DNA of 64,000 nt from Halalkalicoccus sp. CGA53. GTDB lineage: Archaea; Halobacteriota; Halobacteria; Halobacteriales; Halalkalicoccaceae. The stretch covers positions 62,001 through 126,000 of the forward strand of contig NZ_CP144124.1 of the NCBI RefSeq assembly GCF_036429475.1, in the 5' to 3' direction. Below are positions 20,860-26,979 of this stretch, in pieces (the first letter of the stretch is position 1; each line of letters opens with the position of its first letter). Both the position numbers and the translations under genes were made by a program. Under the pieces are notes generated by a model, which worked only from the letters and a program-made list of their open reading frames with translations, had not been told where the DNA came from and made no database searches.

Positions 20860-21220
20860 GAGTTGTTATACCACACGGCTGTATGACCAAGTCAGATATT
20901 AACTTTTCGAACAAGATTGCGCTGTATCGGCAAGAATTGAGCAGGACGAGGAACTATTTGATCATGTCGCTGGCAAGCTTGCTCAAAAAAGTGCTTCCCG
21001 GTGAACACGCAAGGATGTCGGCAGCGGGCGCGGACGGCAAATGGCGAGCGTTGCTATTTGCGATGTGGATCGACCGGTTTTACCAAACGTGGAGGGTGTC
21101 ATAGAAGAGTTCTCATACCGTGATCACAGTACTTCCCGGATTGTCTCCGCATTCGTAGTTGGTGATTACAACGACAATGCGAAGGCACAGTGCAAAGAAC
21201 ACCTGTGCCCGTGCGTGGAC

Positions 21221-21420: not shown

Positions 21421-21458
21421 CTGGCACGACCACCTACTGGCCGCAGGGGTCGTGCCAG
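21421..21458. repeat. Perfect inverted repeat with flipped 16-bp loop creating a stop
   Basis: CTGGCACGACC at 21421-21431 and GGTCGTGCCAG at 21448-21458 enclose 16 bases. On the coding strand the loop gives DPCGQ-stop; reversed, it gives DHLLAAG. Confidence 0.9.
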
Positions 21459-21724
21459 TCGGGCGTATCGTAGGCGCTGTCGCCAACCATCCAGATCGGC
21501 TGTTTGACGGCGAACGCGTCACGTGTGACGCGCATCACCGTCTCTTCTGGTGCTTGCTTGCTCTCGGTGAACTCCGCTGCAATCGGGATCTTTTGTCCGG
21601 TCGAGACGATTGTACAGCCGTAGCCGTAATAGTACTCTTCAGCGGGTGGATCGTAGCATTTCGATGCATCTTGGTCGGCAGGCATCGTTCTCACATCGGT
21701 TGGATCGATGGAGTAGGTCACGTC

Positions 21725-21751
21725 GAGCAGGCCGAGGAGAGCGGCCTGCTC
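21725..21751. repeat. Perfect inverted repeat inside transposase (9-bp arms)
   Basis: GAGCAGGCC at 21725-21733 and GGCCTGCTC at 21743-21751 with a 9-base loop. Either loop orientation keeps the frame open (EQAALLGLLD now, EQAEESGLLD if flipped). Confidence 0.8.
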
Positions 21752-21956
21752 TACGAGTTGAGCAAAGTGTTCGTCAACTACGTGTTCGAGGTCAGTAAGA
21801 AAACGAGCGACCGCATTTCTTGACGGCGGTCGATCGAACCCACAGCCGAGCCAGACGATCGTGTTCTGAAGCTCCCGTTCAACAGGACGAATGCCGTAGA
21901 TGTCTTTGTAGTAGCAGTGGAGAAACCCACGCATCATCTCTGATGGCTCAAGTTCT

Positions 21957-21989
21957 CGTGTTCGCCCCGGCGGAGACGGGGCGAACACG
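21957..21989. repeat. Perfect inverted repeat inside transposase (12-bp arms)
   Basis: CGTGTTCGCCCC at 21957-21968 and its complement at 21978-21989 with a 9-base loop. The transposase now reads VFAPSPPGR; the flipped loop would read VFAPAETGR. Confidence 0.85.
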
Positions 21990-22512
21990 TCGAACTCTTC
22001 GAGAAACTCGAAGAAGAGATGCTCAAACAGCGCTAGCGTCTCTGTCTCCACGGCTTTGAAGAGCGACTCTACCGAAGGATCATCTTGCAGGGTCGCTGAC
22101 CACATGCCACCTCAGCATTCACCCTGCTCTTTGGTGAGCTAATCGTTCTATGACAACCTCGAACGTGAATAAACGGACGATCCAGCGCCCGAGTGATTGG
22201 TGTAACCCTTGAACGTCGTCGAGCGGAGAGTTGCGTCTTCTTAAACTGACCGCCAAAAGTACGTGGACCACTGCTACTGGATACCCTTTGTTGAGGGCCT
22301 CAGACGTTGTTTCCTATGATCGGAGGTTCACGTATTCGTCACCGACTGTCGGTAATTCCCATCGAGTTATCGAATAGTCAGCACTGACAGGGTTAGATTC
22401 TCAGGAAGCGTCTGGATGGGTGTATATGAGATTTCTCTACCATCTAGACACCGTTCTTACGGCCTCTGACATTGAATACGTAACGCTTGATCTGCTCGCA
22501 GAGATACCGATC

Positions 22513-22545
22513 CCCGGAGTCGAAGCCGCAGCCTTCGACTCCGGG
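22513..22545. repeat. Perfect inverted repeat inside ISH3 transposase (13-bp arms)
   Basis: CCCGGAGTCGAAG at 22513-22525 and its complement at 22533-22545 with a 7-base loop. Present reading PGVEAAAFDSG; flipped loop PGVEGCGFDSG. Confidence 0.85.
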
Positions 22546-22716
22546 ATCATCCGAAAGACACTGCTCCAAGCTGCTGTCGATCAGAAGTCGATCAAGGCGA
22601 TCACCGACACTACCCGGAGAACGTACTCCGACGACTATACGCTCACACAGCTTCACACCGTTCCGCCTGATGAACTGGAAGCAATCGTCAATGATCTCTT
22701 CGTCCAGCAGGCGGCG

Positions 22717-22745
22717 ATGATCCTCGGGCCGGGGCCGAGGATCAT
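22717..22745. repeat. Perfect inverted repeat inside ISH3 transposase (11-bp arms)
   Basis: ATGATCCTCGG at 22717-22727 and its complement at 22735-22745 with a 7-base loop. Flipping the loop would be synonymous. Confidence 0.8.
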
Positions 22746-23582
22746 CTGCATCGACTTCGTCGATTTCCACTATCACGGCTGTCCACACGCCGAGGCTGGC
22801 GAACTCTGCCACACGAAACCCCGCGATGGCACCTCCCAGTGCCACCGCTACCTCGCTGGATTCGTCCTCTGTAGGGCGAAACCGCTCATCGTCGTAGTCA
22901 CACCCGTCCGGAGCGACGAACCGAAGAGCGACGCAGTCGAGCGACTGCTCGACCACGTCGCGGCCCTGCCGTTCGAGATCGCTGGCCTTCTCGCCGACCG
23001 TGGATTCTACGACGGCGCGTCAATCGAGCGACTGGGTGCCCTGGCACCAGTCACTCTTCCGATCATCCGTCGTGGGAATCAGATGGCCGAGTACCGGACA
23101 CGACAATCTCCTACTGGACGGAGTACGTGATATACGAAGGGAGCGAGCGGGAACTGCGTTTTTCGCTCGCGGTCTGTGTCTCCTACCAACATGGTAATCG
23201 AGGCAAACACGGCTTGCTCGTTCGGGCGTCCGTGGCGTGCAATCTGACCGATCGCACGCCGAAAGGAGTCGAAGCACTCTACCAGAAACGCTCAGCCATC
23301 GAGACAGCGTTCCGGACGATGCGCGAAGCGCGTGCGCGGACAAGCACGACTGATCAAGGTGTTAGGTTGATGTTCGTTCTCGTGAGTTTCTTGGTGCGGA
23401 ATCTCTGGCTCATCGTTCGCTGGGGGGTGCTCGCCACGCCGCGGCGCGGCGGGCGAGCACTACCTATCTGGTTTCGCTTCGAGGTGTTCCGAGAGTGGCT
23501 TGACCACGCTCTCGACGACACGTTGTGCCGGAAGTGGGAAGCACCGACCAACGGTGTCGGCATTCCGGCGACCTACAGCCAG

Positions 23583-23613
23583 CTGGACGCGGGCTGAGCC
23601 CGCCCGCGTCCAG
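23583..23613. repeat. Perfect inverted repeat over the ISH3 transposase stop (11-bp arms)
   Basis: CTGGACGCGGG at 23583-23593 and its complement at 23603-23613 with a 9-base loop that contains the TGA. The other ISH3 copy in this window (near 61100) matches the flipped loop better: 10 of 12 bases against 6 of 12 for the present orientation. Confidence 0.85.
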
Positions 23614-23765: not shown

Positions 23766-23878
23766 ATGGGAACTACCGACTGTGCCTTCGCATTGTCGTT
23801 GTAATCACCAAGTACGAACGTGGAGACAATCCGGGAAGTACCGTGATCACGGTATGAGAATTCTTCTATGACACCCTC
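23766..23878 (+). mobile_element. Truncated inverted copy of the 21-kb IS end
   Basis: About 95 bp nearly identical to the reverse complement of 21092-21195. On the plus strand it encodes the last residues of the same transposase, LCLRIVVVITKYERGDNPGS, then TVITV-stop, followed by the terminus ending CTATGACACCCTC. It is therefore the 3' end of a second, inverted copy whose remainder is gone, perhaps removed when the ISH3-like element arrived. Confidence 0.8.
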
Positions 23879-23990: not shown

Positions 23991-24010
23991 CTAATTAATC
24001 GGTTAGTTAG
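23991..24010. promoter_or_regulatory. TetR-type operator upstream of the DMT exporter
   Basis: CTAATTAATCGGTTAGTTAG, a quasi-palindrome ending 9 bp before the exporter start. Its reverse complement shares 17 bases with the site ahead of the TetR gene (24988-25004) and resembles a third at 25868-25887. Confidence 0.7.
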
Positions 24011-24019
24011 AAGGAAGAT

Positions 24020-24941
24020 ATGGATTCACGGTATCGCAATGCGATGTTCTTTCTCATTGCAGCGATCCTCACAGGCGGGATGTACGTTGCAAACAAGGCA
24101 GGACTCACGTATCTCCCACCTGTTTTCTTTGCCTCACTGCGATTTCTCATCGCTGCAGCGCTCCTTCTCCCGTACGTTGCTCTTCGCTCGGAACGGCTCC
24201 GGCCACGAATGCACACGGACTATCTTACGATTCTCGCCAGTGGCGGGCTCGTGGTCGGAGCGGCAAATGCCTTCCTTTTTGTCGGCCAGCAGTACACGAC
24301 GAGCGCAACGGCGGCAATTATCATCAGTCTCAGCCCGATTCTCACTGTCGGCCTCGCAGCAGCCCTTCTTCCAAGCAGCCTTCTCTCATGGCGGGGTGTG
24401 TTTGGAGTCGTTCTCGGACTGGTTGGGGTCGGTATCGTCGCACAAACGAGTCCTTCGAACCTCGTTCCAGTCACGATGCTTGGGGATGGGGATTCTCTTT
24501 CTCGCTGCAGTAGCGCTCGCCGTCGGTGGTGTCGCACTCAGTTACCTACAGGGTTCGCTCTCTCCGCTTGCTATTACAGCTTGGGCGACGCTCGTTGGTG
24601 GGATCTCAATGCTCATGCTTAGTCTCGCTCTTGGGGAACAAGTAGCAGCTATCTCCTGGTCACGAATCGCACTTCTTGCGATCGTATTCAACGGGGTCAT
24701 TGCGACGCCAATCGGCTACATCGCGTATTTCAGCCTTCTGGACTCCGTAGGTCCCATTCGAGTGAATCTCATCACGTACGTCTCCCCGGTTATCACGGCA
24801 ATTCTCGGATGGCTTCTTCTCGGAGAGCAGTTACTACTACAGACACTCATTGGGTTCACCATCATCGCGACGGGTTTCTTTCTCATCGAGTACCGAAGCC
24901 TCACACAGGAGATGGCTCGGCTTCGCCGTCCGTTCCCGTAG
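24020..24941 (+). pseudogene. EamA/DMT-family exporter with a frameshift at a G-run
   Basis: A ten-helix drug/metabolite-type transporter. The first EamA repeat reads from ATG 24020 (MFFLIAAILTGGMYVANKAG) to about 24480. The second, MGILFLAAVALAVGGVALSY through LGWLLLGEQLLLQTLIGF, is in another frame to 24941. The shift falls in CTTGGGGATGGGG (24478-24490). All helices are otherwise intact, so it may be a recent mutation, a sequencing error or phase variation at the G tracts. It shares an operator with the TetR gene downstream, which points to regulated efflux. Confidence 0.78.
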
Positions 24942-24987
24942 ACGAATGTCGCACGAGTCCTCGCCTTACGTCGGTGGGCTTATAGCG

Positions 24988-25005
24988 CTAACTAACCGAT
25001 TAATG
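24988..25005. promoter_or_regulatory. TetR-type operator at its own gene
   Basis: CTAACTAACCGATTAATG immediately before the TetR start at 25011. It matches the reverse complement of the site at 23991-24010, suggesting autorepression. Confidence 0.7.
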
Positions 25006-25010
25006 AATCA

Positions 25011-25694
25011 ATGAGCTTCTCTGAGGATCGACAACAACGAGCGGGGTCTGCTGAGACTCGGGCGGCAATTATGGAGGCGACTCATCGAGCACTCTGCAAG
25101 TACGGGTACGCTAACCTCTCGATTCAGAAGATTGCCGACGAGTTCGAAATGACGACTGCTGTTTTACATTACCATTACGATACTAAAGAGAACCTCCTTG
25201 CGGCGTTCCTCGAATACTTACTGGACAATCTCGTCGACGAATATACAGCACAGTTTGATATTGAGTCGATCGAGAATCCACGTGATCGACTTCTCGTGAT
25301 CATCGATGCCCTTCTCGTCGTTCTCGTCGGTATTGACGATCCAGATCGACCAATTGAGCGAGTAGATGACCGCCCGCCACTTGGTGGTGAGGAACTCAGC
25401 ATGGCACTGTTAGAGTTGCGGGCGCAAGCCGGTCGGAACGAAGCCTTTCGCAAACAATTCACCATCAACTACGACTACGCCTGGGATCTGATGGTTGCAA
25501 CGATCGAAGAGGGCATCGAGCAGGAAGTCTTCCGCGAGGTTGACCCCGAACAGGTAGCAACGCTTCTTCTTGCAACAATGCTTGGCGGACGAGCCTATCA
25601 CGTCTCGCTCACGCACGACGATGTCGCTACCATGGTGCGGAATGCGCTCGTCGATCTCATCCTCGACGATCTGCTCATCAAACGTAAGGACTGA
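25011..25694 (+). CDS. TetR-family repressor
   Basis: A 227-aa regulator. The N-terminal helix-turn-helix is TRAAIMEATHRALCKYGYANL, then SIQKIADEFEMTTAVLHYHYDTKENLL, typical TetR spacing. The C-terminal ligand and dimerisation domain covers residues 70-220. Matching palindromes lie before the exporter at 24020, before this gene and before the GNAT gene at 25934, so I infer it represses all three. The stop codon lies within a repeat shared with 38430. The inducer is unknown. Confidence 0.9.
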   Translation: MSFSEDRQQRAGSAETRAAIMEATHRALCKYGYANLSIQKIADEFEMTTAVLHYHYDTKENLLAAFLEYLLDNLVDEYTAQFDIESIENPRDRLLVIIDALLVVLVGIDDPDRPIERVDDRPPLGGEELSMALLELRAQAGRNEAFRKQFTINYDYAWDLMVATIEEGIEQEVFREVDPEQVATLLLATMLGGRAYHVSLTHDDVATMVRNALVDLILDDLLIKRKD

Positions 25695-25800
25695 TAGGGA
25701 TCATCGTAGGAGTTCATAATTCCTTGATCACGAATCGAACGACACCAGTGAGATCTGTGCCTGAGAGATCCGGTGGCTACGTGATTCTTATGAGCTCGCC
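25691..25800. repeat. Dispersed repeat, copy A
   Basis: Starts CTGATAGGGATCATCGTA and continues with similarity (TCATAATT, then CGAACGACACC) to 38430-38540 in the same orientation. It could be a MITE or an IS end. It overlaps the last bases of the TetR gene. Confidence 0.6.
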
Positions 25801-25867
25801 CGCCTCTACCCCGTCACTGTAAGTGTTCGACTCTGGAACGAAAGTGTGCGAAACCTTTACAATGTTT

Positions 25868-25887
25868 CTAACTAAATGGTTAATTAG
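25868..25887. promoter_or_regulatory. TetR-type operator upstream of the GNAT gene
   Basis: CTAACTAAATGGTTAATTAG, closely matching the sites at 23991 and 24988. It lies 47 bp before the GNAT start codon. Confidence 0.62.
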
Positions 25888-25933
25888 ATACGATGGGCGA
25901 GCTTCATTCACAGCTCATCGTTTCGGAGGATCC

Positions 25934-26440
25934 ATGTCTGAGATTCAAACTGGATACATTCCTGGCGCCCTCGGTTGCATCATCGAACTTCACGAAACCT
26001 ATTACAGCGAGTACTGGAATCTCGACTACGAATTCTCCCGTGAGGTAGCAGTCGAACTCGCGGAGTTCCTCGGCCGGTACAACGAAGCCGACAATCGACT
26101 TTGGTTAGCGATGAGTGACCCGAACGATGAGGGCGAACAGGAAGTCATGGGATCGCTCGTCATCGACGGCGGCCATTCCAATGGCGAAGAAGGCGCGCGC
26201 ATCCGCTGGGTCATTCTCGCGCCCGAACTCCACGGACAGGGTCTCGGTCGTGAGTTGATGAACAGAGCAATGGCGTTCTGCACGGAGGCAGGTTACGACA
26301 GAGTGTATCTATGGACGTATGAGGGGCTCGAAGCGGCGCGTCAGCTGTACGAAGAACACGACTTTATACTCGTTGAGGACGTCACACGGCACAATTGGGG
26401 ACCCGAACTCACGTACCAGAAGCTGGAGCGTACCCTCTAA
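25934..26440 (+). CDS. GNAT-family N-acetyltransferase
   Basis: A 168-aa acetyltransferase transferring acetyl from acetyl-CoA to an amine. ATG 25934 has a good ribosome-binding site (GGAGGA, 3 bp before it), which decides the start against an upstream in-frame ATG. The acetyl-CoA loop is in WVILAPELHGQGLGRELMNR, followed by AMAFCTEAGYDRVYLWTYEG. Co-regulation with an exporter through a shared operator suggests detoxification by acetylation and efflux; the substrate is unknown. Confidence 0.87.
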   Translation: MSEIQTGYIPGALGCIIELHETYYSEYWNLDYEFSREVAVELAEFLGRYNEADNRLWLAMSDPNDEGEQEVMGSLVIDGGHSNGEEGARIRWVILAPELHGQGLGRELMNRAMAFCTEAGYDRVYLWTYEGLEAARQLYEEHDFILVEDVTRHNWGPELTYQKLERTL

Positions 26441-26638: not shown

Positions 26639-26929
26639 TTAAGCTTCGGCGAGCATCGACCGCACGTACTGATTTTCCCAGTCACAACGCGCTTCGAGCT
26701 CGCGTTCGCCCCGATCAGTGAGGACGTAGGTGTTTTTTCGCCGATCGAGCACTTCTTTCGAGACGAATCCTTTGTGGACGAGCGCGTCGAGGTTCGGATA
26801 GAGCCGCCCGTGATGGACCTCCGTCGCGTAATACTTCTTTATCTCGTCTTTGATTCCAAGGCCGTGCGGATCGCTTATTCCCTCGATGACGTAAAGCAGG
26901 TCACGCTGGAATCCGGTGAAGTCATCCAT
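26639..26929 (-). CDS. PadR-family regulator
   Basis: A 96-aa winged-helix protein. ATG 26929 gives the usual start MDDFTGFQRDLLYVIEG. The core is GLGIKDEIKKYYATEVHHGRLYPNLDALVHKGFV, then EVLDRRKNTYVLTDRGERELEAR, matching small haloarchaeal PadR proteins. No obvious target gene adjoins it; neighbours are IS and gene scraps. Confidence 0.85.
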   Translation of the reverse strand: MDDFTGFQRDLLYVIEGISDPHGLGIKDEIKKYYATEVHHGRLYPNLDALVHKGFVSKEVLDRRKNTYVLTDRGERELEARCDWENQYVRSMLAEA

Positions 26930-26979
26930 ACTACAGTTACAATAATATCCAATGTAATTGTTGTGTGTGTCTATCAAAT

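Follow-up and report, generated by a model that had tools for sequence, protein, structure and literature searches.

The stretch analysed here, hereafter the window, covers 64 kb of the genome of Halalkalicoccus sp. CGA53 (NZ_CP144124.1, positions 62,001-126,000), a genome that totals 4.04 Mb over two contigs. It carries three genes, all on the + strand, which encode an EamA/DMT exporter, then a TetR repressor, then a GNAT acetyltransferase, each preceded by a copy of one palindrome. The features are as follows, in positions of the window, the mismatches being counted against the 20-bp palindrome described below.

23991-24010, no strand, putative operator 1: perfect palindrome CTAATTAATCGGTTAGTTAG, at -29 to -10 from the DMT ATG, no mismatch
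24020-24941, + strand, EamA/DMT exporter gene (Pfam EamA), frameshifted at the G run 24482-24485
24970-24985, + strand, predicted tetR core promoter GTCGGTGGGCTTATAG with the TATA-like TTATAG, nearly invariant in four genomes
24988-25007, no strand, putative operator 2: imperfect palindrome CTAACTAACCGATTAATGAA, at -23 to -4 from the TetR ATG, two mismatches, in the 3' half
25011-25694, + strand, TetR repressor gene, 227 aa (Pfam TetR_N and BetI-type C-terminal domain)
25849-25859, + strand, predicted GNAT core promoter CGAAACCTTTA, partly conserved
25868-25887, no strand, putative operator 3: perfect palindrome CTAACTAAATGGTTAATTAG, at -66 to -47 from the GNAT ATG, no mismatch
25934-26440, + strand, GNAT acetyltransferase gene, 168 aa (Pfam GNAT), with GGAGG at 25925-25929 before the ATG

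A preliminary description of this DNA had named the three products as a DMT exporter, a TetR protein and a GNAT protein, and Pfam agrees with these identities. The exporter gene contains two EamA domains, one in each frame of the broken gene. The TetR protein displays both the N-terminal helix-turn-helix (PF00440 TetR_N, 34.2 bits for a cut-off of 24) and a C-terminal ligand-binding domain of BetI type (PF13977, 32.4 bits for a cut-off of 27). It fits none of the named NCBIfam equivalogs (BetI, AcrR, ScbR-binding and others), the best score being 49.2 bits for a cut-off of 150, and all 14 NCBIfam models among those listed score below their cut-offs. The closest sequence of solved structure is PDB 3crj, 'Transcription regulator' (E 5.6e-33, residues 15-203), which we take to be a TetR protein from Haloarcula and for which we know of neither a function nor an operator. 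The GNAT protein carries the acetyltransferase domain (PF00583, 49.6 bits for a cut-off of 20.7), and the glycines of its acetyl-CoA loop (G101, G103 and G105) are invariant among 11 aligned proteins; an AlphaFold model built from a three-sequence alignment reaches a mean pLDDT of only 54.3. A PadR-like regulator is encoded on the - strand (26639-26932), 200 bp downstream of the GNAT gene.

The repeat that the preliminary description had placed before all three genes, in either orientation, is real. Indeed, exact copies of the 17-mer CTAACTAACCGATTAAT lie at 23994-24010 (- strand) and at 24988-25004 (+ strand), and a copy with three mismatches lies at 25868-25884 (+ strand); these three matches at up to three mismatches compare with 0.05 expected in 64 kb, and none of 100 shuffles gave three. 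The natural unit of the repeat is the 20-bp palindrome CTAAYTAANNNNTTARTTAG, of which the 17-mer represents the greater part. Without mismatch, this palindrome is found in its own genome only at sites 1 and 3, and it occurs exactly in one of 391 genomes of the class, namely the same one. When up to three mismatches are allowed, the genome contains 6 matching places vs 12 for a reversed control pattern, and genomic matches with three mismatches are therefore noise. Genome-wide searches for a wider regulon, with the window palindrome and with a consensus drawn from cousins, gave only weak matches beyond the cluster; the candidates C2:3264387 (two mismatches) and C2:72716 (three mismatches) were rejected, both lying, on visual inspection of the ORF lists, inside reading frames and not before a gene.

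Three relatives have the same trio, with gene order and orientation unchanged. Two of them, L037 (Haladaptatus salinisoli plasmid unnamed3, annotated as DMT transporter, TetR/AcrR regulator and GNAT) and L038 (H. halobius chromosome 1), came from a contig scan with the TetR protein, and the third, L039 (genome G108), from the 391 genomes of the class. The genome of the window, G108 and the genomes holding the two Haladaptatus loci (G419 and G430) fall into three families (f1, f5 and f7), and the TetR proteins of the three relatives are 86-89% identical to that of the window. The preliminary description had stated beforehand that sites missing from relatives that keep the three genes would refute a common control; all three relatives with the trio retain all three sites, i.e. 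9 of the 9 expected sites, or 12 of 12 over the four trios, which strongly supports common control of the three genes. Before the DMT, TetR and GNAT genes respectively, these sites differ from the window palindrome by 2, 3 and 1 mismatches in L037, by 0, 2 and 0 in L038 and by 1, 3 and 1 in L039, the tetR site being the weakest of the three across genomes (2-3 mismatches). For each of the 12 sites, none of 3000 shuffles of its 100-bp upstream stretch gave an equally good match, the nine sites of the relatives being independent of the pattern and the three of the window not, because the pattern was derived from them.

The sites also keep nearly fixed starts relative to the start codon (-31 or -29 for DMT, -23 for TetR, -66 to -68 for GNAT). 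Four-way identical columns amount to 16, 14 and 14 of 20 within the DMT, TetR and GNAT sites, to 3, 16 and 6 in the nearest 20 columns on their left, where the core promoters probably lie, and to 1, 2 and 1 of 40 between 60 and 21 bp to their left. As identity at the third codon positions of tetR goes down to 53-67% between pairs, the sites look selected. Over the 12 sites, 9 of the 20 positions are invariant and the changes are mostly transitions. On this alignment, the site pattern across the four genomes is a clear phylogenetic footprint.

The position of the sites differs between the three promoters, the placement of boxes and starts following what is generally known of archaeal promoters. 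The tetR site comes directly after TTATAG, which resembles a TATA box, and 3 bp separate its end from the ATG. The GNAT site lies 8 bp after CGAAACCTTTA and is separated from the most likely start codon, ATG 25934, by 46 bp including GGAGG; it would therefore sit at about the transcription start. As for the DMT gene, a comparison of the four genomes gave no conserved TATA-like box upstream of the site. The one TATA-like sequence that is both conserved and suitably spaced is the left half of the site itself, CTAATTAA (-29 to -22 from the ATG), which lies where a leaderless transcript would have its TATA box. All three placements suggest a repressor that would block TBP/TFB or RNA polymerase.

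The TetR protein is the probable binder of these palindromes, as indicated by the putative autoregulatory site, by an identical recognition helix and by the related palindromes that accompany some related TetR proteins. Indeed, a palindrome lies, by sequence only, at its own promoter (24988-25007 and the equivalents in the three relatives), and residues M47-E60, which include the recognition helix, are identical in 4 of 4 orthologues. Furthermore, 63 TetR-related loci were examined, giving 61 usable matches, of which 58, counting the three relatives with the trio, were non-redundant. A palindrome CTRACTRACYRGTYAGTYAG with up to three mismatches was found near the TetR start in 12 of these 58 haloarchaeal loci (0 of 300 shuffles equal in each case), and all 12 TetR proteins display the helix HYHYDTK or a near variant. 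KSLLYHHY-type helices pair with another palindrome, TTGAATGAACGTTCAATCAA, and TRPVIHYHYNSK-type helices with CTTACCATCTGGTAGG. The link between helix and palindrome is incomplete, since many TetR homologues with a similar helix have no site upstream of their own gene (e.g. L051-L053, L055, L057-L063 and L065-L069). In L041, L042, L050 and L060 the site is found elsewhere in the locus, and in L041, L050 and L060 it precedes an adjacent MFS gene.

Several individual loci may be mentioned. In L013, L014, L016 and L018, TetR genes with the KSLLYHHY helix have TTGAATGAACGTTCAATCAA or a close sequence beginning at -13 to -10, and the genome of the window itself has one KSLLYHHY TetR with a TTGAATGAACGTTCAATCAA-like palindrome (C2:2668076). 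In L019, L020 and L021, a CTTACCATCTGGTAGG-type palindrome lies at about -52 of TetR genes with the TRPVIHYHYNSK helix. The TetR genes of L008, L009 and L010 have CTGACTGACTAGTCAGTCAA at their start; the gene directly after the TetR gene encodes a MATE exporter in L008 (Pfam) and, by eye, something similar in L009.

We consider it probable, at about 0.8, that the trio forms a local, autoregulated TetR regulon, in which a single repressor would control its own gene, the exporter gene and the acetyltransferase gene. Against it weigh the small number of trios (four, with similar TetR proteins, although from three families), the weak tetR site, the TetR homologues of similar helix that have no site and the frameshift in the exporter gene of the window. 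Autoregulation combined with control of nearby promoters is the usual design of TetR systems. A TetR dimer would bind the 20-bp palindrome before each of the three genes, which would have one promoter each, and would cover the TATA-like box at the DMT gene, the stretch from the TATA-like box to the start codon at tetR and the transcription start at the GNAT gene, thereby excluding TBP/TFB or RNA polymerase. Repression rather than activation is the likely mode of action, with release by an inducer. A small molecule would free TetR, so that exporter, acetyltransferase and repressor would rise together, and newly made TetR would close the loop; the weaker tetR site would let some repressor still be made.

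Local TetR regulons are a known type of system, to which the trio would add a well-documented example. The bacterial AcrR, TtgR and MtrR are local repressors of TetR/AcrR type that control adjacent efflux genes and are autoregulated. The trio would resemble them by its TetR gene lying beside the exporter gene that it controls and by its autoregulation, but differs by three promoters that each have a full operator, by archaeal core promoters, by an exporter of the EamA family and by the GNAT gene as third member; matches of its TetR protein to families of the AcrR/TtgR/MtrR type are far below the family cut-offs. As far as we know, experimental studies cover few archaeal TetR regulators. One of them, FadR from Sulfolobus acidocaldarius, is reported to be a TetR-family regulator of fatty acid metabolism that binds acyl-CoA and, in its own gene cluster, semi-palindromic sites that include its own operator; its sites are given as only four in total (PMC6449355). 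FadR and the trio TetR are alike as archaeal TetR proteins with few sites in their own cluster, including a putative one at the trio tetR gene; FadR is not known to come with an exporter/acetyltransferase pair, and the operators of the trio are predicted from sequence. Among the titles and abstract openings searched, which mostly leave aside subscription journals, no published account of the trio or of such a haloarchaeal TetR operator was found.

As regards the role of the regulon, the preliminary proposal of resistance by acetylation and efflux is plausible by analogy with the company kept by the TetR cousins. The two proteins could serve detoxification, one modifying and the other exporting a small amine or amino-acid-like compound. 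A role in export or homeostasis fits equally well, and the reading in which TetR would bind the common sites to control export and acetylation of a metabolite or amino acid, rather than resistance to a toxic compound, comes not far short of an even chance. EamA proteins include exporters of amino acids and metabolites, besides drug exporters, and the NCBIfam models nearest to the exporter, all far below cut-off, are YedA, the carboxylate/amino acid/amine transporter family and YddG; the PDB and NCBIfam matches that bear on the GNAT substrate are weak and include spermidine acetyltransferases. By contrast, MFS and MATE genes, whose families are rich in drug exporters, are found close to those TetR cousins that have related palindromes, which by analogy would favour resistance; ten neighbours assigned by Pfam comprise nine MFS and one MATE, which is not an unbiased count because these neighbours were picked for their membrane-protein look.

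It is rather unlikely that the trio is decaying in its own genome, the exporter gene being a pseudogene and its site a relic. The reading frame of the exporter is a point on which the preliminary description is to be corrected: the run at 24482-24485 has four Gs (GGGG) vs three (GGG) in the three relatives, which splits the frame, and the exporter may therefore be non-functional or mis-sequenced. In L037, L038 and L039 the DMT protein is full length (306 aa). This additional G speaks for decay, but a one-base difference in a homopolymer is also a common assembly error, both pieces still align at 80% protein identity to an intact relative and the broken gene keeps an operator that is perfectly palindromic. 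An assembly error at the G run and a recent loss of the exporter, with its operator still perfect, are the two options.

Another regulator, e.g. the PadR-like protein encoded nearby or a global factor, with TetR acting elsewhere, is a very improbable owner of the palindromes. The assignment of the sites to TetR is itself indirect and the PadR gene is close, but no match to the PadR protein was found in L037, L038, L039 or L080, whereas sites and TetR travel together, and PadR was rejected as the binder because it has no counterpart matched near the trios of the relatives; the confinement of exact sites to the cluster speaks against a global factor. The idea that the sites repeat by chance an AT-rich motif frequent in the promoters of haloarchaea, which the TATA-like aspect of the half site might evoke, is practically negligible given the expectation in the window, the absence of the exact palindrome from the other 390 of the 391 genomes searched and the conservation at all nine expected places, which in practice refutes it.

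Of 392 genomes of the order, four have a DMT protein at 77% identity or more, and all four hold the whole trio; of 391 genomes of the class, six have a GNAT protein at E <=1e-30, and two of these hold the trio. Neither partners nor sites were found within ~1.5 kb on each side of the four other GNAT loci (L073-L076, 41-46%) or of 11 loci with DMT homologues (L081, L082 and L084-L092, 40-45%); the sites therefore accompany the trio and not single genes. One of these GNAT loci, L076, has an adjacent MFS gene. In the own family of the strain (10 genomes, its own included), the best of the other TetR matches have 46% identity over the greater part of their length or 54% in a single short segment, which makes a lateral transfer of the cassette from family to family likely. 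The cassette, common to haloarchaea of three families, probably spread laterally.

The GNAT protein also has bacterial relatives. Bifunctional MarR/GNAT proteins are annotated on plasmids from Paraburkholderia, Pantoea, Paracoccus and Ewingella, and the bacterial loci L093 and L094 carry both MarR and GNAT. The acetyltransferase half of these proteins is 38-42% identical to the GNAT protein over nearly its whole length, and no MarR half was found on the proteins of the window, L037, L038 and L039, which begin at the GNAT part. On these identities, the haloarchaeal GNAT is a free-standing protein related to the acetyltransferase half of the bacterial fusions, and it is apparently regulated by a TetR encoded separately. 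TetR and MFS genes adjoin the fusion gene in Ewingella; the MarR-GNAT neighbourhoods (four examined among the best 25 of 70 matched records) have no constant partner. As a tentative extension, to which we give somewhat less than even odds, haloarchaeal TetR proteins would follow a code (CTRACTRACYRGTYAGTYAG with HYHYDTK, TTGAATGAACGTTCAATCAA with YHHY, CTTACCATCTGGTAGG with NSK), and the trio would be mobile and self-regulated as a cassette, with the acetyltransferase half of a MarR-GNAT-type protein standing free of its own regulator and placed under TetR instead.

The interest of the trio is that a putative regulator, its operator and a local target set can be read together and checked across three families, with an exporter and an acetyltransferase tied to one signal. 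It is thus a candidate ligand-inducible switch for haloarchaea and offers a concrete route to the compound sensed; candidate operator classes for haloarchaeal TetR proteins are a by-product.

Upstream of the trio, a 100-nt inverted repeat (21092-21191 / 23779-23878, 95% complementary), whose right arm ends ~110 bp before operator 1, brackets two transposase-like frames (21434-22105, - strand; 22420-23597, + strand). The segment 23600-23785 has counterparts on many haloarchaeal plasmids (about 75-86% identity), which is to be expected of the end of an insertion element.
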